DNA from: Candidatus Bathyarchaeota archaeon
Lineage (GTDB): Archaea > Thermoproteota > Bathyarchaeia > Bathyarchaeales > Bathyarchaeaceae
Reading direction: 5' to 3'
Length of the DNA stretch: 64,000 nucleotides
Assembly: GCA_004376295.1 (NCBI GenBank)
Contig: SOJZ01000012.1
Coordinates: 1-64,000, forward strand
Shown here piece by piece: positions 51,587 through 63,552 of this stretch. Made by a program: the position numbers and the translations under genes. Numbering within the stretch: the first letter of the stretch is position 1; every line of letters begins with the position of its first letter. The notes under the pieces are model-generated. The model did not search any database, had not been told where the DNA came from, and saw only the letters and a program-made list of their open reading frames with translations.

Positions 51587-51717
51587 GCCGCCGTACACGC
51601 AACACAAACGTGGGCGAAAGCTCAGTTAGGTAGAGCAACTGACTTTGATAGAGTCTCTGTCAGAGGTTGAAGCTGTTAACCAGTTGGTCGACGGTCCGAA
51701 TCCGTCCGGCGGCGCCA
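51587..51717 (+). tRNA. tRNA-Asn (GTT) with introns at 8/9 and 30/31
   Basis: Acceptor GCCGCCG/CGGCGGC, D-arm GCTC/GAGC, anticodon loop CTGTTAA, T-arm GACGG-TCCGAAT-CCGTC, discriminator G, CCA encoded. The acceptor is separated from the D-arm by a 24-nt intron (51595-51618). It forms a full bulge-helix-bulge: helix CGCC/GGCG, bulges GTA and AAA, internal helix CACG/CGTG, outer pairs AGC/GCT. A second intron of 30 nt (51642-51671) lies at 30/31 with helix CAAC/GTTG. Removing both leaves a standard 77-nt tRNA including CCA. Confidence 0.92.
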
Positions 51718-51726
51718 AAATTATAT

Positions 51727-51930
51727 CTATTCAGCCCTTGCCAACACTAAAACAATGCCAACCACTATTAATACAAAGCCAGCGACTAAAAAGATGCCAG
51801 AGAAAGGCTTAACATATCCCGAAGGGGGACTAGTATACGTAAAATAGATGATTATCGCCCCTATGAGGATGGCTATTAACCCAGAGAGTTTCTCGGCTAT
51901 AGTTAATCCGGAACCAACCTCTTCGCTCAT
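51727..51930 (-). CDS. Small two-helix membrane protein
   Basis: This 67-residue protein has two membrane helices (LSGLIAILIGAIIIYF and a GIFLVAGFVLIVVGIVLV stretch) joined by a short loop with PPSGYV. The ends are acidic. It lies 10 bp after the tRNA-Asn gene on the other strand. Function unknown. Confidence 0.65.
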   Translation of the reverse strand: MSEEVGSGLTIAEKLSGLIAILIGAIIIYFTYTSPPSGYVKPFSGIFLVAGFVLIVVGIVLVLARAE

Positions 51931-52031
51931 GTCCTACCCTCTATTCTAGGCTTACTTTAGGTTGTGAAAGCGTTATTTTAACCTTATTAAAATACCGATA
52001 AGTAGGGCGCTTTACGGAGATTAAATCAGCT

Positions 52032-52076
52032 AGTCTCTTCCAGCTTCGCAGGCAGATATTTATCAACAATGTATGT
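52032..52076 (-). repeat. attL: displaced original 3' end of top6A
   Basis: On the minus strand it reads TYIVDKYLPAKLEETS and a stop, i.e. an alternative end of top6A. It differs from the right copy at two positions (52040, 52061). The integrase C-part ATG (52073) lies inside it. Confidence 0.88.
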
Positions 52077-52897
52077 ATAATAGATTACCTAAAGACTTTT
52101 CATTGTTTGCTATGATTGACCTGCAACTATCAAGAGGTACTGTAAGAACGTATAGAAGCTGTCTAAAGATCTTCTTCAAGACGGTCAGGAAGCCAATTAC
52201 AGAGAACGCTATCAGGAATTTTCTTTGGAACTATAGCCAAAAATACCCTAACAAATCGACTTACTCCAATATGCTGAAAGCCTTGAAATGTTACTTCAAA
52301 CGCTATCTTAGGTTGGATATAACTAACTCCTTCAAATTTCCCAAACAGACTTACACTCCTAAAAGAGTGCCTGCCAAAGAACAGCTACAAGAATTCTATG
52401 CAGCATTACCCACATTAAAGGAACGTACCCTGTTTCTTCTTTATGCTACTAGTGGTTTACGAAAGAGTGAAATTATGTCAATGAAGTTGAAAGACTTGGA
52501 TTTGGACAGTCGAATGATTATTCCAAATGTTCATGGGGGCAATACGAAAAAGTCATGGATTGGTTTCTTTAACGAAGAGGCTCAAGAGGCTCTAGAGAAA
52601 TATTTAGCGAAGTGTAAACAGAATGCACAATACTACCGTAAAGTTAGAGTTTTTAACCCCTCAAAGAATCCCACTCGATGGAAAGAAGCTAGAGAAAGAA
52701 CAGGATTAAACGTTACTCCCAGAGTGCTTCGAGACTGGTTCTGTTGCCAAATGGGGGAACTAAGTGTTCCAGACAGATACATTGATGCTTTCTGTGGTAG
52801 AGTACCCAGATCAATACTTGCTAGACACTATACCGACTATAGTCCAGAAAGACTAAAACGAATCTATGATAAAGCAAACCTCAAAGTACTCTCCTAA
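52073..52897 (+). CDS. int: Integrase, C-terminal (catalytic) part
   Basis: This 274-residue tyrosine recombinase part has a SAM-like core-binding domain (residues 15-95) and a catalytic domain. The catalytic Arg is in TSGLRKSEI; box II is TPRVLRDWF, with Arg where His is usual; the nucleophile Tyr is in ARHYTDYSP. Its ATG lies inside attL and its frame is open leftward through the repeat until a stop just outside (52031-52033). In the circular form it would join in frame with the zinc-finger gene at the right end, giving a protein of about 390 residues. Confidence 0.88.
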   Translation: MYNRLPKDFSLFAMIDLQLSRGTVRTYRSCLKIFFKTVRKPITENAIRNFLWNYSQKYPNKSTYSNMLKALKCYFKRYLRLDITNSFKFPKQTYTPKRVPAKEQLQEFYAALPTLKERTLFLLYATSGLRKSEIMSMKLKDLDLDSRMIIPNVHGGNTKKSWIGFFNEEAQEALEKYLAKCKQNAQYYRKVRVFNPSKNPTRWKEARERTGLNVTPRVLRDWFCCQMGELSVPDRYIDAFCGRVPRSILARHYTDYSPERLKRIYDKANLKVLS

Positions 52898-53311
52898 CTC
52901 CCCTTTTTTGTGTCAGAAAAAACCTTAGGATAGAGAGAGAAGAAGAACAACATAGTATCTAACCATTTTCCAGTCTCTTTAGTTTCCTTAAAGGCCTCTT
53001 TTTCCTTGTAGAATACATTTGATAGTTTACTTATTCTCTCTAACAAGCAAAAAAGAACATTTAGAGTAGATGTTTTGACTATATTCTCCTAAATTGAGAA
53101 AAGGGGACTTGTACTTAAAATGGTAAAAGAAGAGATTTAACAGACCGTAGGAGGGAGCTAAGTATGTGAGGGGAAATAGCTCCCTCCTAGGATGTATATG
53201 CCTCTCCTTTCTCTCTTAGAGATTGGCAACTTAGACAAAGACGATTGATGCCTAATGAGGTTTGTGAAAGATTCTTCTAGAAGATTTTCAGAACTTCGCT
53301 AACATTGGTAT
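52898..53311. other. Non-coding region between integrase and GNAT genes
   Basis: A T-run (CCCCTTTTTTGT) just after the integrase stop looks like a terminator. The block with AACATAGTATCTAACC at about 52949-52964 recurs after the Toprim gene near the other end (60238-60253). A long hairpin lies at 53148-53189. No gene is seen. Confidence 0.5.
53148..53189. repeat. 13-bp perfect inverted repeat
   Basis: TAGGAGGGAGCTA (53148-53160) and TAGCTCCCTCCTA (53177-53189) are separated by 16 bases. It sits between convergent genes; it could be a bidirectional terminator or a replication/transfer structure of the element. Confidence 0.7.
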
Positions 53312-54076
53312 TCAATGTTTTTTGTTAATTGCGACTATTTCTTCTTCTATTGACTTCACGATATCCTCTTCAGACGCTGGACCATATAGTTTGATTTTAC
53401 CGTTGATTAGAGGTTCTTTTGTTCCGTACTTCCTCATGTTTTCAAATGTACCCTCCATCTCAACAATCTTGACTTTGTCACCGAAGCTTTTGGCAACCTT
53501 CTTTATCCGATTGTACATGAAAGGACTTACTGGACAGAAGAAGCTTTTGAACAAAGTCACTTCCACTTTGTCTTTTGAAGGCTCATAATTCAAGCTGAGA
53601 ACTTTTACGCTGATATCGTTTTGTACAAGTGGAAAATACATGACTCTGTATGGAGAATATTCCTTTATTGTCCTGAACCCTTGTTTAGTAAAGAGTTCGT
53701 AGTGCATCCATTCTTTGAATTCAGTTGCTGGAACCATTATGCCTTTGACAGCTTGGTTCTTGAGATCTTCTTTTATGTAGTCAAACATCATTCTGCCGAA
53801 GCCTTTGTGCAGATAGTCTTGAAGCAAATAAGTGCAATAGATGCAGGCTACTCCTAGTTCAATGTCATATGGAAGGAGTGCCTTTCCTGACATTGCAAAG
53901 TAGATGTGGCCAACTACCTTCTCCCCATCAAGGAGGTGGTATCCTTCAACATGCTCATTCATGTTCGCTTCAAACCATTCCTTTGACTCGGGTAGACCTT
54001 CAGCATACGGAGATTGAGCAGGTATACAACAATAGGTTGCCCTCATATTGGTTGAGTTAACTTTCTTGACCTGCAA
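53312..54076 (-). CDS. GNAT acetyltransferase with C-terminal extension
   Basis: This 254-residue protein has an N-terminal GNAT domain (HLLDGEKVVGHIYF, then YLLQDYLHKGFGRMMFDYI as the acetyl-CoA loop) and a C-terminal alpha/beta extension (about residues 165-254). The extension contains CPVSPFMYNRIKK, resembling a thioredoxin-like CPxS site. It is cargo of the element; the substrate is unknown. Confidence 0.7.
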   Translation of the reverse strand: MQVKKVNSTNMRATYCCIPAQSPYAEGLPESKEWFEANMNEHVEGYHLLDGEKVVGHIYFAMSGKALLPYDIELGVACIYCTYLLQDYLHKGFGRMMFDYIKEDLKNQAVKGIMVPATEFKEWMHYELFTKQGFRTIKEYSPYRVMYFPLVQNDISVKVLSLNYEPSKDKVEVTLFKSFFCPVSPFMYNRIKKVAKSFGDKVKIVEMEGTFENMRKYGTKEPLINGKIKLYGPASEEDIVKSIEEEIVAINKKH

Positions 54077-54192
54077 AGCTCACCCCTATAAGCTAATTAT
54101 CTTTTAGTGAACTTATGGTTTGCTAAGAGAACACGTATACATGGTGTTTTCCCTTTGTCAGGATGCTTTGAAAAAGGGTTGATATTCTAAAA

Positions 54193-54215
54193 TTTTGTAA
54201 TACGGTGTTACAAAA
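54193..54215. promoter_or_regulatory. 8-bp inverted repeat, operator-like
   Basis: TTTTGTAA (54193-54200) and TTACAAAA (54208-54215) around a 7-base spacer, 13 bases before the small frame at 54229. The symmetry suits a dimeric repressor. Confidence 0.45.
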
Positions 54216-54228
54216 GTGTTGATGCACT

Positions 54229-54309
54229 ATGTTAGGAGAAATAATCAAAGAAGGCAAAATAGACCCAAAGGAACTTACCTTATCGAAGTATGAAAGCGTT
54301 GACATTTGA
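54229..54309 (+). CDS. Possible 26-residue peptide
   Basis: ATG 54229 to TGA 54309 encodes MLGEIIKEGKIDPKELTLSK and six more residues, a soluble amphipathic peptide with natural composition. An operator-like inverted repeat lies just upstream. It could be a true mini-gene or the remaining N-terminus of a lost one. Confidence 0.3.
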   Translation: MLGEIIKEGKIDPKELTLSKYESVDI

Positions 54310-54330
54310 TTTTAACAAACTGTAGTTTCT

Positions 54331-55344
54331 TCATTGTTCAAGTGGAGTAAATACCTGATTGAAGTAGTTTCTAATGCTCCTTACTATTTCTGGGTCTTCA
54401 GTGTAAATGGCAAATTCTCTATGAGTACCTGTGAGGCTAATAGCATTGAAGTCCATTGAACCTACTAGTGCTTTGTTATCAACAACTAGAACTCTGAAGT
54501 GACACTCTGGATTCATTGAAATATTCTCTCCACCCAATAATGACATCAGTTCTACATGAGCCCTGTCAACATCTTGTCTTCCTGGTTTACCCTTGAGTTC
54601 AGTTGATTTATGAGTCATGATTCGAATGTTAATTCCTTTCTCCTTAAGCACTCTTAGTTTTGGGAGAAGGAGTGTTCCTACCCATCCACAAACCAGTACT
54701 TCAACTGTAGCTCCATCTAGCATTGGTTCTATCTTCTTTAATATCTTGTGAGAAGTTTGATCACTAATTAAAAACTGGGTAATTGTTTGTGGAGGTTTTT
54801 TCTTCTCTTCTGAAATAAGTGTAGCAGACAATCCTGATTCAAAAATCATTTCTAGAAACCTTTTGGATTCCAAGTAGGCTCTTTGTATATCAAGTTCTTC
54901 TGTTTTGAACCCTTTGATAAATCTTAGTTGACCGCAAAGCATGGGATGACACTCTGTCTTGCATAGGCACCCCTTTTCCTCTCTATTTACTACAGAAACA
55001 TACACTTCAGCTGGTAAATCTGAACGTATAGACTGGAGGTGGGTGTAAAAAGCCTTTGAACCTTTTCTTTTATATTCTGCTAATTTCTCCTCTACTAGTT
55101 TTTTATTTTTTTCTGTTTTCAAATCCATTCCATATGTTAATTCAAATAGGAATAAGTGCTCCATAGCTATTGTGAAATGAAAACTTAGTCCATGTTCAGT
55201 TGAAAGAAACCATCTAGAATATCCAGCTATAACTTGCCATGAAGCATTAAGCTCCTTTATTATTTTGTCCTTTAGTTTAGTACTATTAACAGGTATGAAG
55301 TACTTTTGTCTAGCTATTATTTTCTCTAAATCTATTTTGGACAT
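54331..55344 (-). CDS. Phospholipase-D-like protein
   Basis: This protein has about 337 residues from the ATG giving MSKIDLEKI; an upstream ATG (55416) would begin inside a palindrome-containing leader. The C-terminal 130 residues have the PLD fold: EVLVCGWVGTLLLP, NIRIMTHKS and the active-site-like HFRVLVVDNKALVGSMDFN, i.e. H-x-R-x4-D with Arg for the usual Lys, then GS-x-DFN. The N-terminal region is not recognised; it contains CLCKTECHPMLC, a possible metal cluster. It is divergent from the OLD-like gene, with a shared promoter region of 190 bp. Confidence 0.65.
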   Translation of the reverse strand: MSKIDLEKIIARQKYFIPVNSTKLKDKIIKELNASWQVIAGYSRWFLSTEHGLSFHFTIAMEHLFLFELTYGMDLKTEKNKKLVEEKLAEYKRKGSKAFYTHLQSIRSDLPAEVYVSVVNREEKGCLCKTECHPMLCGQLRFIKGFKTEELDIQRAYLESKRFLEMIFESGLSATLISEEKKKPPQTITQFLISDQTSHKILKKIEPMLDGATVEVLVCGWVGTLLLPKLRVLKEKGINIRIMTHKSTELKGKPGRQDVDRAHVELMSLLGGENISMNPECHFRVLVVDNKALVGSMDFNAISLTGTHREFAIYTEDPEIVRSIRNYFNQVFTPLEQ

Positions 55345-55531
55345 TGTGTATCTGGAAAATGAAAGGTTTGTCTGTATTAATGTCTTTCCTACAGTATACA
55401 TGAAGTGTGCATGCATTGTTTCAACTTGTACTAAAGATTTAAGACAAATTATGTTGTATATTTGATTGTTTGCAGTAGAGAAACCAAGAAGGATTGCTTA
55501 CAGTCACAGTATGGAATGAGGTTTGAGTAAA

Positions 55532-57073
55532 ATGCGTTTCCTCAAGTATGTGAAACTGAACAACTATTTAAATCTGAAACATGCAAAATTGAACGGGTTA
55601 AGGGACCTTAACATCATAATTGGTCCAAATAACTGTGGTAAAACAAGTCTCTTGAAGGCAGTAGATCTGCTTGGTAGAATAAAACTTGGAGGAGGTCCTT
55701 ATGGCTGTACGATTTGTAGAAGCGTACCTAGAAAAATCACCAATTTCAGTTCTGGCGTAGGATGCGAAATAAATGTAAGAGAGAAATACTTGACAAAGAA
55801 AAAGGTAAGTGCCATTTTTGGATTCTACAAAAGTGAATTCGAGAAGGGCTTACCCGATTTATCTGTTCTTGATGATGGAGCGAGGGAACACTTTAGAAGT
55901 GAATTTAGAAAGAGAAAATTACTGATGAAGGAAAAAACAAATAGAATTCTAAGTTCCGAACACGTTTCTCCTGTCATTCAAAGTGAAATCCAGATGAGAA
56001 TATTTAACCATATACTCTTCTGTCCAGATGAAAGGCTGCAAACCTATAAAGGAGTAGCGATTCCTGAACACATCAAGTCAAAGAATTTTGGAACACTTGA
56101 AAACAGAAATTTGATTGATTTCTTAAGGCAAGTTGTGGATGTAAAGATTTCAGACTTGCGTCAAAGCCTAGATCTTGTGAAAGATGTGGAGAAACAACGT
56201 TTTACTACACCAATCGCAGAACAAGGTTCTGGTGTGAAATCCTTAATTTGCCTTGTGGTTGATATTATTTCTGCAACGGAAACGAAAATCTTATTGGTTG
56301 ATGAACCAGAACTGGGGTTAAATCCTTCAGGTAAACATGCATTTCTGAAGTTTCTAATTGAACAATCTAGAGACAAACAGGTATTTCTGGCTACTCATGA
56401 CCCAACCTTTGTTAACCCTATACTTTGGAATAGAGAGAATGTCTCTGTCTACATGTATTCAATGGTCAATGATGATTTTGTAAAAGTTAATCTGATGCAG
56501 AGTAAACAAGACCCAAGTACTTTTGCTGGCTTTCTTCCACACACAACAAGTCTAAAACAAGTACATATCTACGTAGAAGGAACAACTGATGTCTACATTT
56601 TCCAGATGTTTCTAGACAAATATGTAAAGGAGAAGTTCAAAGAAAACTGGTATCACATTCTCAGCAAAATAGGAATTTTCCACTTGGCAGGAGATTTCTG
56701 GAGACACTTGCTGTACACGATTCCTAAGAGACCATACACCTCAATTGTTGTTCTAGATGGTGATAAGAAGGAAATTGCCAAGGAAGTAGTCGATAAATAT
56801 GGGGTAATTGAAATGGACAGATTCCGGATATTTGACTCATTGGATGAAATCATACATGAGAAAAGGCGTAGGAAACCAATAATCCCCATGCCCTGTCCAG
56901 TATACTGCCTGAAAAATCCTGAAATAGAAGACTATTTAGAAACCAGATATGAAGCTAAACCCCTCTTCAAGGAGGATGGACCTTCTGTTGCCTACGAGAT
57001 GAAACATATTCCACCTGAAATAGAACAATTATTTGATACAATATTTCAAATGGCAAACATACGAAATGAATGA
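55532..57073 (+). CDS. OLD-family ATPase-Toprim nuclease
   Basis: This protein of about 513 residues has an SMC/ABC-like ATPase with Walker A GPNNCGKTS, signature-like EQGSGVKSL, Walker B KILLVDEPELGLNP and an H-loop in FLATHDP. It is followed by a Toprim domain with VEGTTDVYIF (Glu) and VVLDGDKKE (Asp-x-Asp). This is the OLD layout shared with GajA of the Gabija system. A TTG at 55523 is in frame, but the ATG at 55532 has better spacing to GAGG. It lies head to head with the PLD-like gene; a two-gene defence unit is plausible. Confidence 0.8.
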   Translation: MRFLKYVKLNNYLNLKHAKLNGLRDLNIIIGPNNCGKTSLLKAVDLLGRIKLGGGPYGCTICRSVPRKITNFSSGVGCEINVREKYLTKKKVSAIFGFYKSEFEKGLPDLSVLDDGAREHFRSEFRKRKLLMKEKTNRILSSEHVSPVIQSEIQMRIFNHILFCPDERLQTYKGVAIPEHIKSKNFGTLENRNLIDFLRQVVDVKISDLRQSLDLVKDVEKQRFTTPIAEQGSGVKSLICLVVDIISATETKILLVDEPELGLNPSGKHAFLKFLIEQSRDKQVFLATHDPTFVNPILWNRENVSVYMYSMVNDDFVKVNLMQSKQDPSTFAGFLPHTTSLKQVHIYVEGTTDVYIFQMFLDKYVKEKFKENWYHILSKIGIFHLAGDFWRHLLYTIPKRPYTSIVVLDGDKKEIAKEVVDKYGVIEMDRFRIFDSLDEIIHEKRRRKPIIPMPCPVYCLKNPEIEDYLETRYEAKPLFKEDGPSVAYEMKHIPPEIEQLFDTIFQMANIRNE

Positions 57074-57852
57074 CAACAGAAGAAATGCAATGCCGGAAAG
57101 AAGTCTTTGAATGGACTATCAACAAACATAAACCATTGAACTCAGAAAGGTAAAGCCAGAAAGTGATAGGGTAGTTTTCTAGTGATCTGCGTAAAGTTTA
57201 TCCAGAAGTATGAGCGTGTAGGGAGTGTTCATTGGCAGACTGGATGGAAGTTGAGACAGCAGAATAATATGCTGTCCTAGACCTCATTTTCCCTTCCCTT
57301 GTGTGTCCAGTCAAAGTCCCCAAAGCGTATACTCCCTAGATGTTGAAGTTTCGACATGTATGAACCCCAGTGAGAGTGCAAAATTCTTCTCCATAGTTAC
57401 CCCCGCACACTCTGCCCCCCAAAAAACATGTGGATTTTCAGAAAAAATAGTCATTTTTGAGCATCTGAAAACATAGTTGAACACTCAGCCTAGGGAATAT
57501 TTATAAGCTACAGGGGTACATGGGTTTATTACCCCATTTAAGTGGAGTTGAATCAAATGAGGCAGTCCATCAGCAGATTCTGGTCGAATCCCACATTCTC
57601 CCAAAAATTATGTCTTATTATATATAATTAGTATAGTTATTTGTTACTAGCTTGTTAATATCGTTATAAAGATTTTGTTTATTCCTTAATTAGCAAATAA
57701 GCAACAACCTTCTAATCATTGAAAAAGCACTTATGCAAAAATGAGCTTAAATGGTTGGTAGTTCAATCCTTTCTTGTTAACTAGAGTTGTTACTTGTATA
57801 CATCTATCCATTTAACTAAGAAGAGAGAGTCTCTTGTAACATACATAGAACA
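57074..57852. other. Non-coding region of the element
   Basis: It contains a long nested hairpin (57219-57338) and, after 57600, a very A+T-rich stretch with ATATATAATTA at 57620-57630. No convincing gene is seen. A short TGGTCGAATCCCAC near 57581 looks like a tRNA T-arm but no tRNA can be folded. The region could hold the element's replication origin. Confidence 0.4.
57219..57338. repeat. Nested inverted repeats forming a 120-nt hairpin
   Basis: Arms in nested order: TAGGGAGT (57219)/ACTCCCTA (57331), GACTGGA (57238)/TCCAGTC (57306), GGAAG (57246)/CTTCC (57293), GACAGCA (57255)/TGCTGTC (57270). Each pair is perfect. The pattern suggests a structured RNA or a replication structure, 145 bp after the OLD-like gene. 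Confidence 0.65.
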
Positions 57853-58203
57853 CTATAGTATAGTGTGTAATATTACTATCTTAAGTTGATTTGAACGTTT
57901 CTTTCTTAATAAGGAATTAATTGCTTTCTTAGTTGCATGCGTGATTACAAAGCTCATTTTGTGTTCTTTTAGCCAAAAGAAGAAAGAATCGCATGTAACA
58001 TACATAGTATTAGAGTGTAATACAGTAATAATATTCAGATAATTAGATAGAGTCCACTTCCTTCTTGCTAAGAATCTCATTATTTTCTTGACTAGTCTAT
58101 GTAGGAAAGAGAATAAACCAAAGTCATTTAGATTGCAGACTCGGACTAACAAAGGCTTCGTCCTAGAGGTTTTCTCTTTCCTATTTTTCGCCAAGAGAAT
58201 CAT
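57853..58203 (-). CDS. Possible basic hypothetical protein
   Basis: From ATG 58203 the frame encodes about 116 residues, very basic (MILLAKNRKEKTSR at the start, LLRKKRS near the end) with aromatic-rich middle. It is divergent from the gene at 58217. The composition is compatible with a nucleic-acid-binding protein, but it may only be an open frame in A+T-rich DNA. Confidence 0.3.
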   Translation of the reverse strand: MILLAKNRKEKTSRTKPLLVRVCNLNDFGLFSFLHRLVKKIMRFLARRKWTLSNYLNIITVLHSNTMYVTCDSFFFWLKEHKMSFVITHATKKAINSLLRKKRSNQLKIVILHTIL

Positions 58204-58216
58204 GAGGTAATTTTGA

Positions 58217-58738
58217 ATGAGTGAAAATAGCAGAAGGGATGTTGAAAGAGAACAGCGATTTCCCTGTGAACAATTAGAATACACTAGAACTGTTGGTTGG
58301 CTTTTGCCAACGATTCTTGGAGAAATACTAACTGAACTAGGTTTTGTAGTGATAATTAATCCACAGCAAGCCAATGGAGTGGATTTAGAAGTGTATCATG
58401 AATCAGACTTGATTTTCGTAGCTGAGGTTTTGAACTGGAGCATTGCTAGTAGACTGACAGACAAAAGAAGAGACTGCATTATTAGTAATCTAAACGAATA
58501 CACCTGTGAGAAATTGTTGATTCACACTGTTCCTCTATCCAATCTTGATGGTTTTGAGGAGAATGGGACAAGCCTTTTGCAGATAGGATACCAAGTTCTT
58601 CCGAGATTGTACTACGACTTTTTTCTTACAAGAAGGCAGGTAGAAAGAAGAAGAATGGTCTCTGCTGCAACTAAGAATGACATTAGACAAATGATTATAT
58701 CTTACTTAACAAGAACCGAGTTTCCCATACACCATTAG
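58217..58738 (+). CDS. Restriction-endonuclease-like small protein
   Basis: This 173-residue protein has the core ILTELGFVVIINPQQANGVDLEVYH followed by IFVAEVLNWS. That is a strand-helix-strand arrangement with Asp and Glu placed as in PD-(D/E)xK nucleases, though the lysine position holds Asn. The C-terminal half is helical and basic. It is cargo of the element. The nuclease reading is tentative. Confidence 0.5.
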   Translation: MSENSRRDVEREQRFPCEQLEYTRTVGWLLPTILGEILTELGFVVIINPQQANGVDLEVYHESDLIFVAEVLNWSIASRLTDKRRDCIISNLNEYTCEKLLIHTVPLSNLDGFEENGTSLLQIGYQVLPRLYYDFFLTRRQVERRRMVSAATKNDIRQMIISYLTRTEFPIHH

Positions 58739-58922
58739 TGATGATTTTCAGGGCAATCTCCATTCTAAGCTCTATTTGAGCTTCTTCTTAATTTTTTCAA
58801 TAGTTTATGGATTTCATAGTTATGAGAAAGCATGAGGAAAACAGAATTCCACTAACATAATTTCCAATTGCCAATGACTAGATTAGCTAGTCTTAGGGTT
58901 TTGGCATTTCTATGATTGCTTA

Positions 58923-60155
58923 GTGGATTCTCTCTTCCTCACTTTCCTAACAGGAGATGATCGAGGAATGACAACCGATTTTATGTGGTGTTATAAAACA
59001 ATAAAGCAGTTAGCTAAGAAACTAGGACGTTCTTTTAAAGAACTAATAGTCCTAGCACCTCAGAATGATCCATACTACATTGGTTCACAAACACAAAGGG
59101 AACATGCAGGATGGATTGCTGAAATTGTTGATCAGTTCTTAGAAGCCAGAGGAAGAGGTAAAGTCCATGATAGAGCCATACACTATTATATTTTATCAAT
59201 GAATCTCATGAGACCCATAGACAAGGATAAGCAGAGAGTTTTCAAAGGTGATTCTAATGATTTTTCTTGGGTTATGAAATCTATACAGAATGCTAGAATC
59301 TTAGACTATACTCCTTGGACTTGCATAGAAGATAAAAAGAATCCAGAACTAATCCAAAATGCTCATTATTGGACCCATAATACAATTGAGAATCTAAAGA
59401 TTACACCAGAGAAAATAGCTAAGAAAATCAGTGAAGAATTCTATCCATTCAATCCACAGTTACAACAAGCTTACCATGTTGAGATATGGACTGAGAAAAC
59501 TACCATAAATGATATTCTAGAGCCAATAAGTAAGAGATATGGTGTTAACATACAATCTTTCAGTGGACAAGCAACTTCTACAAAAGTCTTTGAGCTAGTC
59601 TATAGAATTTCAAAGATCAACAAACCAGTGAGAATCCTATACATATCAGACTACGACAAGTCAGGTCACAACATGCCTGTGGCTACTGGTAGAAAGATAC
59701 AGTGGTTCCTAGACACTATGAATCTAAAGCGTGATGTCAAACTAGACAAGATTCTACTGACAGGAGACCAAGTGAAAGAGTACAGATTGCCTTCAGCACC
59801 TGATGCTAAGAATAAAGTAGAAATTGATGCTCTTGAAGTCTATCACCCTAATGAAACAAGAAAAATAGTAGAAGCTAATGTTTCCAAATACATGGATTTA
59901 AAACTAACCCAAGAAATCATCAGAAGAAATGCTGAGATACAGAAAGCTATCTACAACGCTGTTATAAAGCAAAAAGATTTGATCAAAGAGCTGATAGAAG
60001 AACTAAATCTAAATCAACTGAAGCCTTTGTTCAACAACCCCATACCAAAAGCAAGAACAATAGATGAAGCTAATAAAGCACTATTTGACTCAAACAGAGA
60101 TTACTTAGAACAACTAAAGAAGTTCAAACAACACCTGCTGAGTAGAAAAGACTAG
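58923..60155 (+). CDS. Toprim-domain protein of the element
   Basis: This 410-residue protein starts with GTG. The middle (about residues 180-290) has EIWTEKTTINDILEP (Glu-Lys) and RILYISDYDKSGHNMP (Asp-x-Asp), the acidic residues of a Toprim domain as in Top6A, DnaG and OLD proteins. The N-terminal region has VLAPQNDPYYIGSQTQREHAG, seen in plasmid and phage proteins. The C-terminus is a helical tail. It may be a replication or topoisomerase-like protein; the family name is not known to me. Confidence 0.6.
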   Translation: MDSLFLTFLTGDDRGMTTDFMWCYKTIKQLAKKLGRSFKELIVLAPQNDPYYIGSQTQREHAGWIAEIVDQFLEARGRGKVHDRAIHYYILSMNLMRPIDKDKQRVFKGDSNDFSWVMKSIQNARILDYTPWTCIEDKKNPELIQNAHYWTHNTIENLKITPEKIAKKISEEFYPFNPQLQQAYHVEIWTEKTTINDILEPISKRYGVNIQSFSGQATSTKVFELVYRISKINKPVRILYISDYDKSGHNMPVATGRKIQWFLDTMNLKRDVKLDKILLTGDQVKEYRLPSAPDAKNKVEIDALEVYHPNETRKIVEANVSKYMDLKLTQEIIRRNAEIQKAIYNAVIKQKDLIKELIEELNLNQLKPLFNNPIPKARTIDEANKALFDSNRDYLEQLKKFKQHLLSRKD

Positions 60156-60655
60156 AGATTTCTAGAGAAAATGACATCATATATAACATCCCCTTTTTTG
60201 TAAAACAAAAAATATTTTCCATCCTTACACAAGGGAGAACATAGTATCTAACCCTAAATCTCTGTTCTTATTATCCCTATTTCATCATTTTAGTATAGTG
60301 TAAAAAATACTTATTTCACTTATCCTCCACACACGCTTAATTGAAGGAAATAACATCCTAAGTATGAACAACAATGGGAAGTGTCATTTAGTTTTTGTCT
60401 AATGGATATTTTGAATTTTATTGTGTCTAGAGACAATGTTATTTTATCATAGGGATTTATCAAAGCCTACAGATGAAACAACCTATGCATGTATTACATT
60501 TGTTTATATTCTCTTAGCTATGATAAACATGTATTGCATTCGCTTATTCACACTCTCGCATGATAAGCTCCATAACATTCTACTACACAAAATTCTTAAG
60601 TAGTTGGTTAGCCTTATTGTACTACACAAAATATAGGAGAAGAGAAAGATTGACA
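60156..60655. other. Non-coding region at the element's right end
   Basis: It starts with a T-run terminator-like CCCCTTTTTTGT (about 60191) and the AACATAGTATCTAACC block (60238-60253) shared with the left end. Two copies of CTACACAAAAT (60583, 60622) and a TATA-like AAAATATAGG (60628-60637) precede the integrase N-part. Confidence 0.5.
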
Positions 60656-60903
60656 ATGAAGCTTAAATGTCCAGTATGTGGAGAACATGGAACTCTAATG
60701 TCAAAGACAACGATAACAAAGACATCCAAAGCAACTTACAGATACCTCAAATGGTATGTATATCACAACAAGTCTAAAGGAACTAAGCAGAGATGGTGTT
60801 ACCTCTCTAAGAAGTATCTACAGCTACCAGAAATCAAAGAAGCTATTAGTAAACAACTAGCTACACAAAATAAGTCTATAACTACACAAAATACTACACA
60901 AAC
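60583..60903 (+). repeat. CTACACAAAAT repeats, possible integrase arm sites
   Basis: Perfect 11-base copies at 60583, 60622, 60861 and 60882 and a partial copy at 60894. The last three lie inside the integrase N-part gene and encode its Thr/Gln/Asn linker. They occur 60-380 bp from attR. Confidence 0.5.
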
Positions 60904-61024
60904 AAGCACCAACGCAAATAGGTTTGAATCAAGCCTTATTCAACAAAAGAAGCCAATTAACCAGTCTCTTTCAGCTTCGCAGGCAGATATTCATCAACAA
61001 TGTATGTTAATCCGTATCTGCTGA
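60656..61024 (+). CDS. int: Integrase, N-terminal zinc-finger part
   Basis: From ATG 60656 it encodes 122 residues: CPVCGEHGTLM with a later CYL, a basic domain (RYLKWYVYHNKSKGTKQRW), then a Thr/Gln/Asn-rich linker. The frame enters attR and reads SLSASQADIHQQCM, then stops within top6A antisense DNA after LIRIC. The same frame is the one open through attL into the catalytic part (SLPASQADIYQQCMYNRL). It is therefore the separated N-terminal part of the integrase. Its length and zinc finger suit DNA binding. Confidence 0.8.
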   Translation: MKLKCPVCGEHGTLMSKTTITKTSKATYRYLKWYVYHNKSKGTKQRWCYLSKKYLQLPEIKEAISKQLATQNKSITTQNTTQTSTNANRFESSLIQQKKPINQSLSASQADIHQQCMLIRIC

Positions 61025-62048
61025 AAGCTTCTTGCTCTGCCTTCTTCTTGATCTTCAAAAATTTCTTCACCTCTCTTTGCCAAAGCTTTCCTTTATAACG
61101 TGGGTCCCTCTGCAGCTCGTGGAGGCGTTTGATGTCTATGTTAGTCAACGCATCACTCGGTAGCTTATAATCCACGATATCAGTTGCCCACATACCGCTC
61201 CAAGTGGCATCGGGCGTAGTCAACTCTCTGAGATGGGCTGCGTTCGCCGATCCTGAGATAATAACCATTGCAATGTGCATTCCCCACGGGTCGCCGTCAG
61301 TGAATATGTGTACTGGGAGGTCTAACTCTTTGTTTAGTCTATGAATAAAATGTCTCGTAGCACGGGGGGCCTGACCTGCCGTAAGCACAAGGAGTGCATT
61401 GAATTTTTTGTGAACCGCCTCCTCTATGAAACGTGTGAATAAGCCTCCTTTCTCTATAGCGATGACCATGTCTGCGCCGGTTTTGACAAAATTGGCAGAA
61501 GTAAGCGCTGGGCCTATCATCATTCCGTCGGGATGCGATGTTAAATTTAGTTGTCTACCTTCATAGCCGGGAACTGTGTATTCTATGGTTAAGTCACCGA
61601 AGATTGCTGAACGTTCTTCAGGAAAAACGTTAAAGTCCTCCCGAGAGAAACCCACCACGGTTTCAAGGTCAGTTATGATATTGTTGGATTCCGGTTGGTC
61701 CTTGAACGACATGTCATACGCCTGCGCCGAATAATACACATCACGAAGAGTAGAAGTCTTCCGATGTTGCGTAAGTTCATGGACAAAGTAGGCGACCCAA
61801 ACCAGCCGCGTAAGAGGACGAATGTGACGTATATTCCGAGAACTTCTGCGTACAGTTTTGTCTCCTAAAATGTATTGCCGAACCTCTGGACTGTAAAAGA
61901 TGTTTTCGATGGATCGGCTTGGCATATTAATCCATGGGAAAACGCCTTCTTCCATCTGGTCGTAGAGTTTCGCTCCAAGTTTTCTTAAGCTTGTTAAAGT
62001 TTTCTTTCGCTTCTCTGTAACCGAACTTTCATTTTTTTTCTTCTTCAA
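60957..62048 (-). CDS. top6A: DNA topoisomerase VI subunit A
   Basis: This 363-residue Spo11-like subunit cuts and rejoins DNA. The catalytic Tyr is in TLRDVYYSAQ (about residue 104); Toprim residues are IEKGG and FTDGDPWGM. The last 15 codons lie in attR, so the end EYLPAKLKETG comes from the element. It overlaps the upstream top6B gene by 20 bp, a coupled operon. The gene remains full length despite the insertion. Confidence 0.94.
   Translation of the reverse strand: MKKKKNESSVTEKRKKTLTSLRKLGAKLYDQMEEGVFPWINMPSRSIENIFYSPEVRQYILGDKTVRRSSRNIRHIRPLTRLVWVAYFVHELTQHRKTSTLRDVYYSAQAYDMSFKDQPESNNIITDLETVVGFSREDFNVFPEERSAIFGDLTIEYTVPGYEGRQLNLTSHPDGMMIGPALTSANFVKTGADMVIAIEKGGLFTRFIEEAVHKKFNALLVLTAGQAPRATRHFIHRLNKELDLPVHIFTDGDPWGMHIAMVIISGSANAAHLRELTTPDATWSGMWATDIVDYKLPSDALTNIDIKRLHELQRDPRYKGKLWQREVKKFLKIKKKAEQEAFSRYGLTYIVDEYLPAKLKETG
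60963..61007 (-). repeat. attR: element-supplied 3' end of top6A
   Basis: Right copy of the 45-bp repeat. It encodes the current C-terminus of Top6A on the minus strand and the end of the integrase N-part on the plus strand. Confidence 0.88.
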
Positions 62049-63552
62049 GTTTTCTCACAGTCCTTAACAATTTTTTAATGTCAGGTGTTTTTTCTTTTCC
62101 AGCCAGTTCCGTGGAGAACCGAGCGATCTTGGGCAAATACTTGGAAAAGACTGATAGTCGCCTCCTTTCTTTTTCAACATGTTCCCGCTTGGTCAAAAAG
62201 CGTTGAAGTTGACGGGCCACCTCGCGGATACCGTTCAGGATTTCCCTCTTCATTTCCGGTCTGTCCGCTATAAATTCTTTGCCCACAGTTTTGTAGGGAA
62301 CCTTCGTGCTACATACATGTACCAGAATAGCAATGGGCATGTCAGGTAAAACTTTGTATCTTCGCCAGTTGATGTATCTTATGACTTTTACTGAAACGTC
62401 ACTGGCTTCATCATATAACAATGGAATTCTGTTAGCAAATCGATACACAGGAAAATCGTCCTTCGGTACATCTCCGCCATACGCTATCGCCGTCTCCACA
62501 ATGAAAGGATGACCAGAATAAGTTGAGGGTTTGCGTTGAAAAACTGCAGTGAACTCTGGTTTCAATTCTTTAAGAATCCCTGCCTTTAACAGTTCTTCAC
62601 CTAACGGAGACAAGCAACTCGCGTCTGGGGGAAGGAAGCCCTTAAACCTCTTTATCATGCGTACAAGCCTCACGATCTCATGAGGCTTCAGTTTTTTTGG
62701 GTTTTTTTTCTCGCTTATTCCAGCAAACTCTAAAAAGTGATGTGCGATGTTCTCGCCGATCCTATGGAAATGTGTTTTCATAAAGTCTAGCATGTTTCGG
62801 CACGGAGTGATTCGTATAAGGCGTTGAATAGTTTCCACATCCACTCCATATGGATGAGGTAATGTTTCTTTGGGTGGAGGTGGCATTTTCGTTGTGACGC
62901 GGGTGAACTTGTATAAGCGTCCTTTAGGGTCAATGAAAGTTATATTTGCATACGGTGTCACCAACGCTGTCTGTTTCAAATACTCCAAGATTTTTGGCAT
63001 AGCTCGGAAATAGTCGCCTTCTAGGCAAAATTCCACGATTGTTCCATGCCATTTTTCTTTGTTTATCTGGATTTTGCGGTCTAAAATGAGGGGACGATTT
63101 CTTTGGATGTCTATCATCAATTTATATTTGTAAATTTTTGATGTGCCGGTGCTTGAGGCAACGTAAACAGGTTTGTGTGTGGTAATTTGGCCGTAGAGTA
63201 TTGCCATGGTTCCTCCGAGGCCGAACGTTCCTCTTGCCTGTTTTAACTTGTATTTTGAACCGAACAAAACCTGGCCGAATGCAGAGGGTATGTGACGAGG
63301 TGGGATGCCCGAACCATTGTCTTCGATTCTTAACGTATAAACAGCGACTTCATCAAGTTCCGCCTCATCCTCTTGAGACAGTCGAATGTATATGTCTGGA
63401 GGTATACTGTATATGTCGGCGGCGTCAAGGGCGTTTTCTACAAGCTCTCTCATAGATGAGAAGACTGCCCTTGCTGGATTGGTGAAGCCAGCTATGTCTC
63501 GGTTGCGGTAGAAGAAGTCAGCGGCACTAATTTCTTCAAAAGTTTGTGCCAC
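62029..63552 (-). CDS. top6B: DNA topoisomerase VI subunit B
   Basis: This 507-residue GHKL ATPase subunit drives strand passage. The ATP site shows RELVENALDAAD (N box), RIEDNGSGIP (G1) and RGTFGLGGTMA (G2). Transducer-domain residues include AIAYGGDVP and RFANRIPLLYD. It is first in the top6B-top6A operon. Its length is normal for the family. Confidence 0.94.
   Translation of the reverse strand: MAQTFEEISAADFFYRNRDIAGFTNPARAVFSSMRELVENALDAADIYSIPPDIYIRLSQEDEAELDEVAVYTLRIEDNGSGIPPRHIPSAFGQVLFGSKYKLKQARGTFGLGGTMAILYGQITTHKPVYVASSTGTSKIYKYKLMIDIQRNRPLILDRKIQINKEKWHGTIVEFCLEGDYFRAMPKILEYLKQTALVTPYANITFIDPKGRLYKFTRVTTKMPPPPKETLPHPYGVDVETIQRLIRITPCRNMLDFMKTHFHRIGENIAHHFLEFAGISEKKNPKKLKPHEIVRLVRMIKRFKGFLPPDASCLSPLGEELLKAGILKELKPEFTAVFQRKPSTYSGHPFIVETAIAYGGDVPKDDFPVYRFANRIPLLYDEASDVSVKVIRYINWRRYKVLPDMPIAILVHVCSTKVPYKTVGKEFIADRPEMKREILNGIREVARQLQRFLTKREHVEKERRRLSVFSKYLPKIARFSTELAGKEKTPDIKKLLRTVRKLEEEKK

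Follow-up and report, generated by a model that had tools for sequence, protein, structure and literature searches.

The stretch analysed here, called the window throughout, comprises 64,000 nucleotides of a Candidatus Bathyarchaeota archaeon genome (contig SOJZ01000012.1 of assembly GCA_004376295.1, positions 1 to 64,000). Within it, 8.9 kb of DNA lies between two copies of the 3′ end of the topoisomerase gene top6A and carries part of a tyrosine integrase gene at each end. We consider it highly probable that this is an integrated mobile element of the bathyarchaeal host, moved by a suicidal integrase of the SSV-like kind whose own gene was split as the element entered the 3′ end of top6A. 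The case is built on the repeat, an empty site in congeners, the sorting of the repeat's mismatches, reading frames in phase, and homologous integrases both split and whole. From these we propose a free circle, a fused and active integrase, excision in trans, and a tRNA-targeting ancestor from which the element would have arisen by exchange of the linker that encodes the attachment (att) site.

The top6A end in the window and in relatives

The target gene, top6A (60957..62048, minus strand), is intact at 363 aa and has the Pfam Top6A/Spo11 TOPRIM and TP6A_N domains. Its final 17 codons lie in the right-hand copy of a 53-nt direct repeat, D1 (52024-52076 and 60955-61007; 48/53 identical, 91%), that bounds the 8.9 kb. 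A preliminary description of this DNA, made from its letters alone, had reported 45-bp repeats with 43/45 positions identical, the right one being the end of top6A; that assignment and the two mismatches were confirmed, the 45 bp lying inside the longer repeat. A 241-nt query spanning the left copy found two matches only in the 1.89-Mb, 44-contig assembly of the window (E 5e-123 and 1e-14). There is no third copy, and a common dispersed repeat, of which the same description had warned, is ruled out.

The left copy, attL (52024..52076), joins the displaced host end of top6A in its left half to element sequence in its right half, and its outer flank matches the empty sites of the relatives described next. 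The right copy, attR (60955..61007), has element sequence on its left and host top6A on its right; neither site is assigned a strand. The target is regenerated at one end of the element, and its displaced 3′ end stands at the other.

An uninterrupted top6A end followed by the flank at 51.9 kb, which the preliminary description had proposed to look for, is present in two congeners. In genomes G003 (Top6A 95% identical) and G001 (88%), the end of top6A is directly followed by the sequence that in the window stands to the left of attL; beyond it comes a homologue of the 67-aa gene at 51727..51930 (minus strand; product judged membrane-type by eye), the next gene after top6A in these relatives. 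Scored locally against the host flank of the window, the flank after the top6A stop reaches 46 in G003 and 19 in G001; of the 30 top6A loci, none of the remaining 28 exceeds 15. From the end of the top6A match to the 67-aa gene the distance is 103 bp in G003, 97 bp in G001 and 89 bp in G014, compared with 9.0 kb in the window.

The two copies differ at five positions of the repeat (4, 6, 8, 17 and 38), and all five sort into an element type and a host type. At positions 4, 6, 8 and 17 attL has the letters of the host attB (the empty site of G003, L004), and at position 38 it is attR that agrees with the G003 empty site. One exchange, placed between positions 18 and 37, suffices to account for all of them. 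The crossover must lie in the 20-bp identical core (52041..52060 in attL, partner 60972..60991 in attR, again without strand), which on the minus strand supplies the YLPAKL codons of top6A. These codons are kept in 27 of 30 top6A ends, with one residue different in each of L011, L019 and L031; the terminal few residues vary among the 30, and in the window they read LKETG in place of LEETS. At position 8 the integrase frame reads TAG in the host copy (attL and G003) and CAG in the element copy, so that attP, the site of the element, lets the integrase frame continue at a point where the sequence of this host would close it. This would fit a functional fused gene, a single site proving little.

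ARAGORN, run on the window, called no tRNA at either att site. A hidden tRNA at the att site was considered and rejected, since the sole Rfam tRNA match also lies outside the element. That match (51619-51706; 27.2 against a gathering score of 29; no ARAGORN call) is perhaps an intron-containing tRNA beside the element.

Two integrase frames in phase through the repeat

The catalytic part, int(C) (52073..52897, plus strand), encodes 274 aa from an in-frame ATG and comprises the core-binding and catalytic domains of a tyrosine recombinase. It matches PF00589 (1.3e-14, 54.8 bits) and, above its cut-off of 27 bits, PF16795 Phage_integr_3 (1.2e-8, 35.5 bits), described as the domain of the suicidal families (PMC8371274), though PF00589 scores higher. 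The core-binding models are weaker (PF02899, 21.6 bits against a cut-off of 22.3). Across 15 homologues K159 and Y253 are invariant and R130 and R220 are kept in at least 90%; all four residues are present in the window. An AlphaFold model of int(C) (predicted local distance difference test, pLDDT, 86.9) has the archaeal Xer 4a8e as its best Foldseek match. The best PDB matches are archaeal Xer proteins, with 3vcf, 4dks and 3uxu ('Probable integrase') ranked lower and absent among the Foldseek matches listed; 3vcf we take to be SSV1 Int. One scan of genome_contigs found int(C) homologues at 69 loci in many archaeal groups, and in a tree of 42 rows the window falls in an unresolved polytomy. 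Phages and plasmids, searched by tblastn, gave distant integrases only, at most 28% identical among the matches listed.

The N-terminal part, int(N) (60656..61024, plus strand), encodes a zinc-ribbon-like domain (C5, C8, H37, C48) and a linker in frame through attR. From its ATG at 60656 the frame crosses attR as INQSLSASQADIHQQCM and ends at a stop at 61022-61024. The int(C) frame was said in the preliminary description to be open backwards through attL. Through the repeat it is, reading SLPASQADIYQQCM as far back as 52034, but a TAG at 52031-52033, in the host-derived half, closes it on the host side.

Both frames are in phase and run in the same direction through the repeat, and by coordinate arithmetic they join into 117 + 273 = 390 codons, in agreement with the one integrase of about 390 residues suggested before. 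No open reading frame (ORF) joins the two halves in the window. Given the repeat (E 1e-14), frames that share phase and direction add a small factor only, and the weight therefore rests on the comparative evidence. By anatomy, the site lies inside the integrase gene and the gene is split on integration, and the catalytic domain is that of a tyrosine recombinase, as in suicidal integrases; a tRNA target, usual for these enzymes and not defining, is replaced by top6A.

Split and whole relatives of the integrase

Homologues of the catalytic half are mostly SSV-like and linked to tRNA genes. A tRNA T-loop motif lies in the 260 nt upstream of 44 of the 59 distinct int(C) whose start is intact; among random stretches of the same loci, 117 of 3480 contain it. 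The 15 that lack the motif include the window; L129 and L146 still read as tRNA by eye or ARAGORN, and upstream of int(C) in L135, L140, L143 and L165 no tRNA was found by motif, eye or ARAGORN.

In 6 of 14 int(C) regions, a repeat at int(C) is paired with a distant one (G130, G098, G041, G108, the region of G001 at 900 kb, and G026). An N-part ORF on the integrase strand overlaps the far repeat in all six, and in the five other than G026 that place also has a called tRNA gene, which runs antisense to the integrase as top6A does here. Reading of the att core on both strands, which the preliminary description had singled out as special, is thus normal for such elements.

Other relatives are whole. 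N-domain, linker and core stand in one frame in L038 (383 codons between stops), L041 (394), L047 (362) and L113 (356), L047 being whole because its 212-bp repeat spans the N-domain. Haloarchaeal L140 is also a whole frame, with no tRNA in the linker. The N-domain matches CcdA, a ribbon-helix-helix (RHH)-type antitoxin, above cut-off in L041, L113 and L140 and just below it in L038; L047 has no such match. Taken with the empty sites and the mismatch sorting, the split relatives of the same geometry at tRNA 3′ ends bear out what had been proposed for the window, an integrase gene split at an attP inside it by insertion at the 3′ end of top6A.

A recurrent N-terminal part

The ligand-type residues C5, C8, H37 and C48 are invariant in nine aligned N-parts. 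An N-terminal zinc finger plus linker had been thought unusual, a view that does not hold. With the N-part profile, 21 of the 256 genomes of the class, among them that of the window, were found to carry the family, and the N-part frame overlaps an ARAGORN tRNA gene in 14 of 30 fetched loci (the window being one of the 30), a count in which several of the non-overlapping loci are cut by contig ends or stops. It is a recurrent type of int(N), and we rejected its treatment as an oddity.

One case bears directly on the choice of target. In G001 an N-part and its upstream region match window positions 60577-60870 at 87% over 294 nt; there the frame then enters a tRNA-Thr gene in sense, and the top6A site of G001 is the empty one described above. 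The same N module therefore sits with two unrelated targets in sister species, tRNA-Thr in G001 and top6A in the window. Zinc-ribbon-like int(N) frames also run in sense through complete tRNA genes at L074, L176-L179, L182, L185 and L203; the regions searched gave no int(C) that would make a convincing partner.

Signs of recurrence at top6A

In two more genera of the family, represented by G007 and G005, top6A is followed past its stop by sequence matching the element side of attR, with scores of 22 and 23 (z 9.2 and 9.4), the next best score being 13. These two share more of the region and may represent one event. In G023, from another genus, a second copy of the top6A end lies 1.6 kb away (78 columns, 82%, E 1e-14) and is followed inward by a short frame like the start of int(C), a likeness that is suggestive only. 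Among the 8 regions searched for it, a second top6A end turned up in 2, those of the window and G023.

Two further regions are mentioned for their position. G011 has a weak flank match after top6A. In another genus (G012:C18, L070/L246), a different stretch of about 8.4 kb lies between top6A and the 67-aa gene; it carries a tyrosine integrase of classical appearance, judged by eye, and a relative of the 410-aa TOPRIM protein of the window element, and no repeat of the top6A end was found in that region.

Orphan C-terminal integrase fragments

Short integrase fragments reduced to about the last 40 residues occur commonly in the class. A C-terminal profile gave 75 listed matches at E <=1e-9, 44 of them with no mid-domain segment within 1 kb upstream; in this count one array fragment is scored as having the segment owing to a whole integrase 0.8 kb upstream, and 3 of the 44 keep other integrase sequence. 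The mid-domain profile gave 34 matches, four without a C-terminus and one of these at a contig end. Conservation is 72% in the C-terminal segment and 64% in the mid-domain, which favours C-terminal detection. Twelve of 22 fragments viewed start at profile positions 8-17 (the PDRFVD codons are 11-16), and for 19 of the 22 no upstream integrase piece was listed even at E 10.

In G075:C32 (L141/L252, 2028-6276), a whole int(C) is followed by several C-terminal fragments in the same direction, with genes between; the 3′ end of int(C) and the first fragment share an identical stretch of 43 nt with divergent flanks on both sides. Orphan fragments also occur at L157, L097/L109, L099, L253 and L256-L261, and some contigs have them in tandem after a complete int(C), one gene separating each from the next. 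Conversely, int(C) in L142 and L161/L089 has no C-terminal match past the residues where many orphan fragments start. Such arrangements may point to a second att-like site in the 3′ coding end of the integrase and a cassette-like array, possibly an integron-like layout.

Cargo and neighbouring genes

Between the integrase parts, the element encodes a GNAT-type acetyltransferase (53312..54076, minus strand; PF00583 1e-4, 23.0 bits against 20.7) and a PLD-like domain protein (54331..55416, minus strand; PF13091 1e-6). An AriA/OLD-like ATPase of defence type follows (55523..57073, plus strand; PF13304 1.7e-22; PADLOC AriA 2.4e-24) and is possibly anti-phage cargo, to judge from these matches. A 173-aa ORF (58217..58738, plus strand) has no family match in Pfam, PADLOC or PHROG.

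The element inserted in top6A itself encodes a Top6A/Spo11-like TOPRIM protein, tentatively Mini-A-like (58923..60155, plus strand; phrog_6247 'DNA topoisomerase' 3.5e-23). The residues R84, Y88, D243, D245, S247 and G248 are conserved, and fold matches to Topo VI A are weak, none at E 0.001. At L239 a distant TOPRIM relative forms a fusion with a region whose HATPase match falls below threshold, in a layout like that of Topo VIII, a fused B-A enzyme. Outside the element, a top6B-like ORF (62029..63552, minus strand), named by eye from sequence, lies upstream of top6A.

Discussion

Our working account is put together from anatomy and analogy. In the free circle, one integrase gene of about 390 codons would encode a zinc-ribbon-like domain, a linker, and core-binding and catalytic domains, and attP would lie inside the gene, in the linker, as a near copy of the last 50 bp of top6A on the opposite strand. 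The integrase would recombine attP with the top6A end inside the 20-bp core. Host top6A would be regenerated with last codons supplied by the element (LKETG for LEETS), and the integrase gene would be cut, leaving int(N) beside top6A and int(C) at the other end behind the displaced host end. That end carries a stop in the integrase frame, and with its gene broken the element would be locked in until a related integrase acts in trans. Such excision is described for SSV2, and for TKV4 with the pTN3 integrase (PMC8371274). The N-part probably serves multimerisation, the job of the N-domain in SSV integrases (PMC8371274).

A lineage of suicidal integrases has probably switched here from tRNA genes to a protein gene. 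As to how, we lean towards a route in which a single stretch of 50 bp came to serve two genes, with Top6A read from one strand and the linker of the integrase from the opposite one; target choice would have been transferred with the linker as a module, the enzyme remaining in frame. The YLPAKL codons would then stand in for the conservation of a tRNA gene, without the dyad symmetry thought to matter.

Several observations count against this account or parts of it. Dyad symmetry in the att core is not above chance, its score being reached by 140 of 300 shuffles and by 64 of 149 other top6A stretches. For the zinc finger named in the preliminary description, four ligand-type residues are conserved in nine sequences, but no Pfam zinc model passes its cut-off in int(N) (the best, zf_CopZ, has 14.9 bits against 28.4), and our label 'zinc ribbon' derives from those four residues. 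Of the 14 N-parts that overlap a tRNA gene, 12 enter it in sense from its 5′ side, whereas top6A is read antisense here, and two enter antisense (L186, L200), orientations read from coordinates. In 18 regions around N-parts there was no convincing int(C) partner, one fragment matching at E 0.014; the pairing of this N-part with the catalytic family consequently rests on the window itself, and either half of the integrase may have been the one exchanged. A fused homologue exists as a family, with frames of 356-394 codons, but none has this combination: in genome_contigs no gene carries this N-part, the top6A att site and the catalytic domain in one frame, as checked by eye on printed N-terminal stretches and by a motif scan of frames under 260 codons. 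The viral_contigs held no relative by profile or protein and no match to the att core. At the same site in relatives, no second att copy was found in G007, G005 or G011, and the element-flank z is only 3.3 in G023, with values of 5.3 in G020 (L010) and 4.1 in L016 that come without other signs; this score is not decisive alone. Finally, the active site reads R..RxxR..Y (RVLR ending at R220; relatives carry K or Q at that position) and departs from the SSV1-type consensus R..KxxR..Y (PMC8371274). We therefore file the window enzyme as one that behaves like a suicidal integrase, outside the SSV1 sequence subfamily.

Another reading takes int(C) as a whole classical integrase of Xer size, 274 aa from the ATG at 52073, with attP merely overlapping its start. 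The zinc-ribbon-like ORF would then be unrelated, for example an excision or control protein whose frame enters the repeat by chance. Int(C) alone does resemble a complete core-binding and catalytic unit, a further point against a split gene: the catalytic domain is there, a core-binding match is present though weaker, the model shows a recombinase core, and an ATG of its own lies within attL. Its relatives L038, L041, L047 and L113 nevertheless run uninterrupted from an N-domain through the att site into the same core; the overlap of N-part frames with tRNA genes (14 of 30, with no chance expectation) and the replacement of the host stop by CAG in attP (one site) also speak against chance entry of the frame, and we hold this reading to be unlikely.

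We give still less credence to a dead or domesticated element, immobile, whose halves now serve as separate genes, the zinc ribbon as a DNA-binding regulator and int(C) as a solo recombinase. Apparent decayed remnants at the same site in relatives, and the TAG that closes the int(C) frame on the host side, speak for it, but both halves are open frames here, and the excision in trans of SSV2 and of a pTN3-related element (PMC8371274) means that a split gene need not be a dead element. Such a relic would in any case be compatible with integration by a suicidal integrase, as its later stage. There is just one complete occupied genome, and its assembly is in 44 contigs, which leaves some room for an assembly join, or for recombination, homologous or illegitimate, that duplicated a segment with the top6A end. 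With one crossover in the 20-bp core accounting for all five mismatches, the site empty in two congeners and the integrase halves placed exactly at both ends of the element, however, we regard duplication or misassembly as barely conceivable.

Suicidal integrases are an evolutionary puzzle, enzymes whose own gene is destroyed and whose target is written into the protein. A member that has moved from tRNA genes to a protein gene would indicate that the linker tolerates quite different sequence. The natural pair of G001 at tRNA-Thr and the window at top6A makes the proposed specificity switch directly testable. In addition, a protein gene that serves as a conserved landing site without a tRNA-like dyad bears on the question, raised in a 2021 review and left open there, of whether protein-gene sites have dyad symmetry (PMC8371274).

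Comparison with known systems

The closest described systems are the SSV-type suicidal integrases (SSV1/SSV2, pTN3, pT26-2; PMC8371274). As reported there, they share with the window element an attP inside the integrase gene, a gene split on integration, att sites of 40-50 bp, Int(N) and catalytic Int(C) at opposite ends, and PF16795. The target in the window is the 3′ coding end of a protein gene and not a tRNA gene, and the window enzyme also differs in its zinc-ribbon-like N-part, its motif R..RxxR..Y and its best PDB matches, which are to archaeal Xer. ArcVen-P3 (PMC4158269), with a split SSV-like integrase in tRNA-Ser and 55-nt direct repeats around 9.5 kb, is alike in its repeats, its split integrase and an N part at first left unannotated; its tRNA target and its virus-like gene content, as described, differ from those of the window element.

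Insertion in protein genes is itself described. Among thaumarchaeal integrated elements, 14 of 68 mapped sites are in 3′-distal regions of protein genes, and insertion there is shown by empty sites in relatives (PMC6563490), as in the window. In that account an unsplit integrase is usual for these elements, with one split, SSV1-like exception, NitEve-E3, whereas the window has a split integrase together with a protein-gene target. In our literature search, which did not extend to supplements and hence not to the target of NitEve-E3, no published case of a suicidal integrase inserted in a protein gene came to light.

For the suicidal integrases, the review gives tRNA targets and a specificity switch confined within two tRNA-gene classes, and the model for that switch, from Thermococcales, is an exchange of int(N) and int(C) (Badel et al., PMC8371274). 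The near-same N module found with tRNA-Thr in G001 and with top6A in the window (87% of DNA over 294 nt) is in keeping with this model. The switches covered there stay among tRNA genes; the one proposed here leads to a protein gene and also involves a different direction of reading with respect to the target. What the window adds to the described systems is an essential protein gene as target, a zinc-ribbon-like N-part, and a natural pair through which the specificity switch can be tested.

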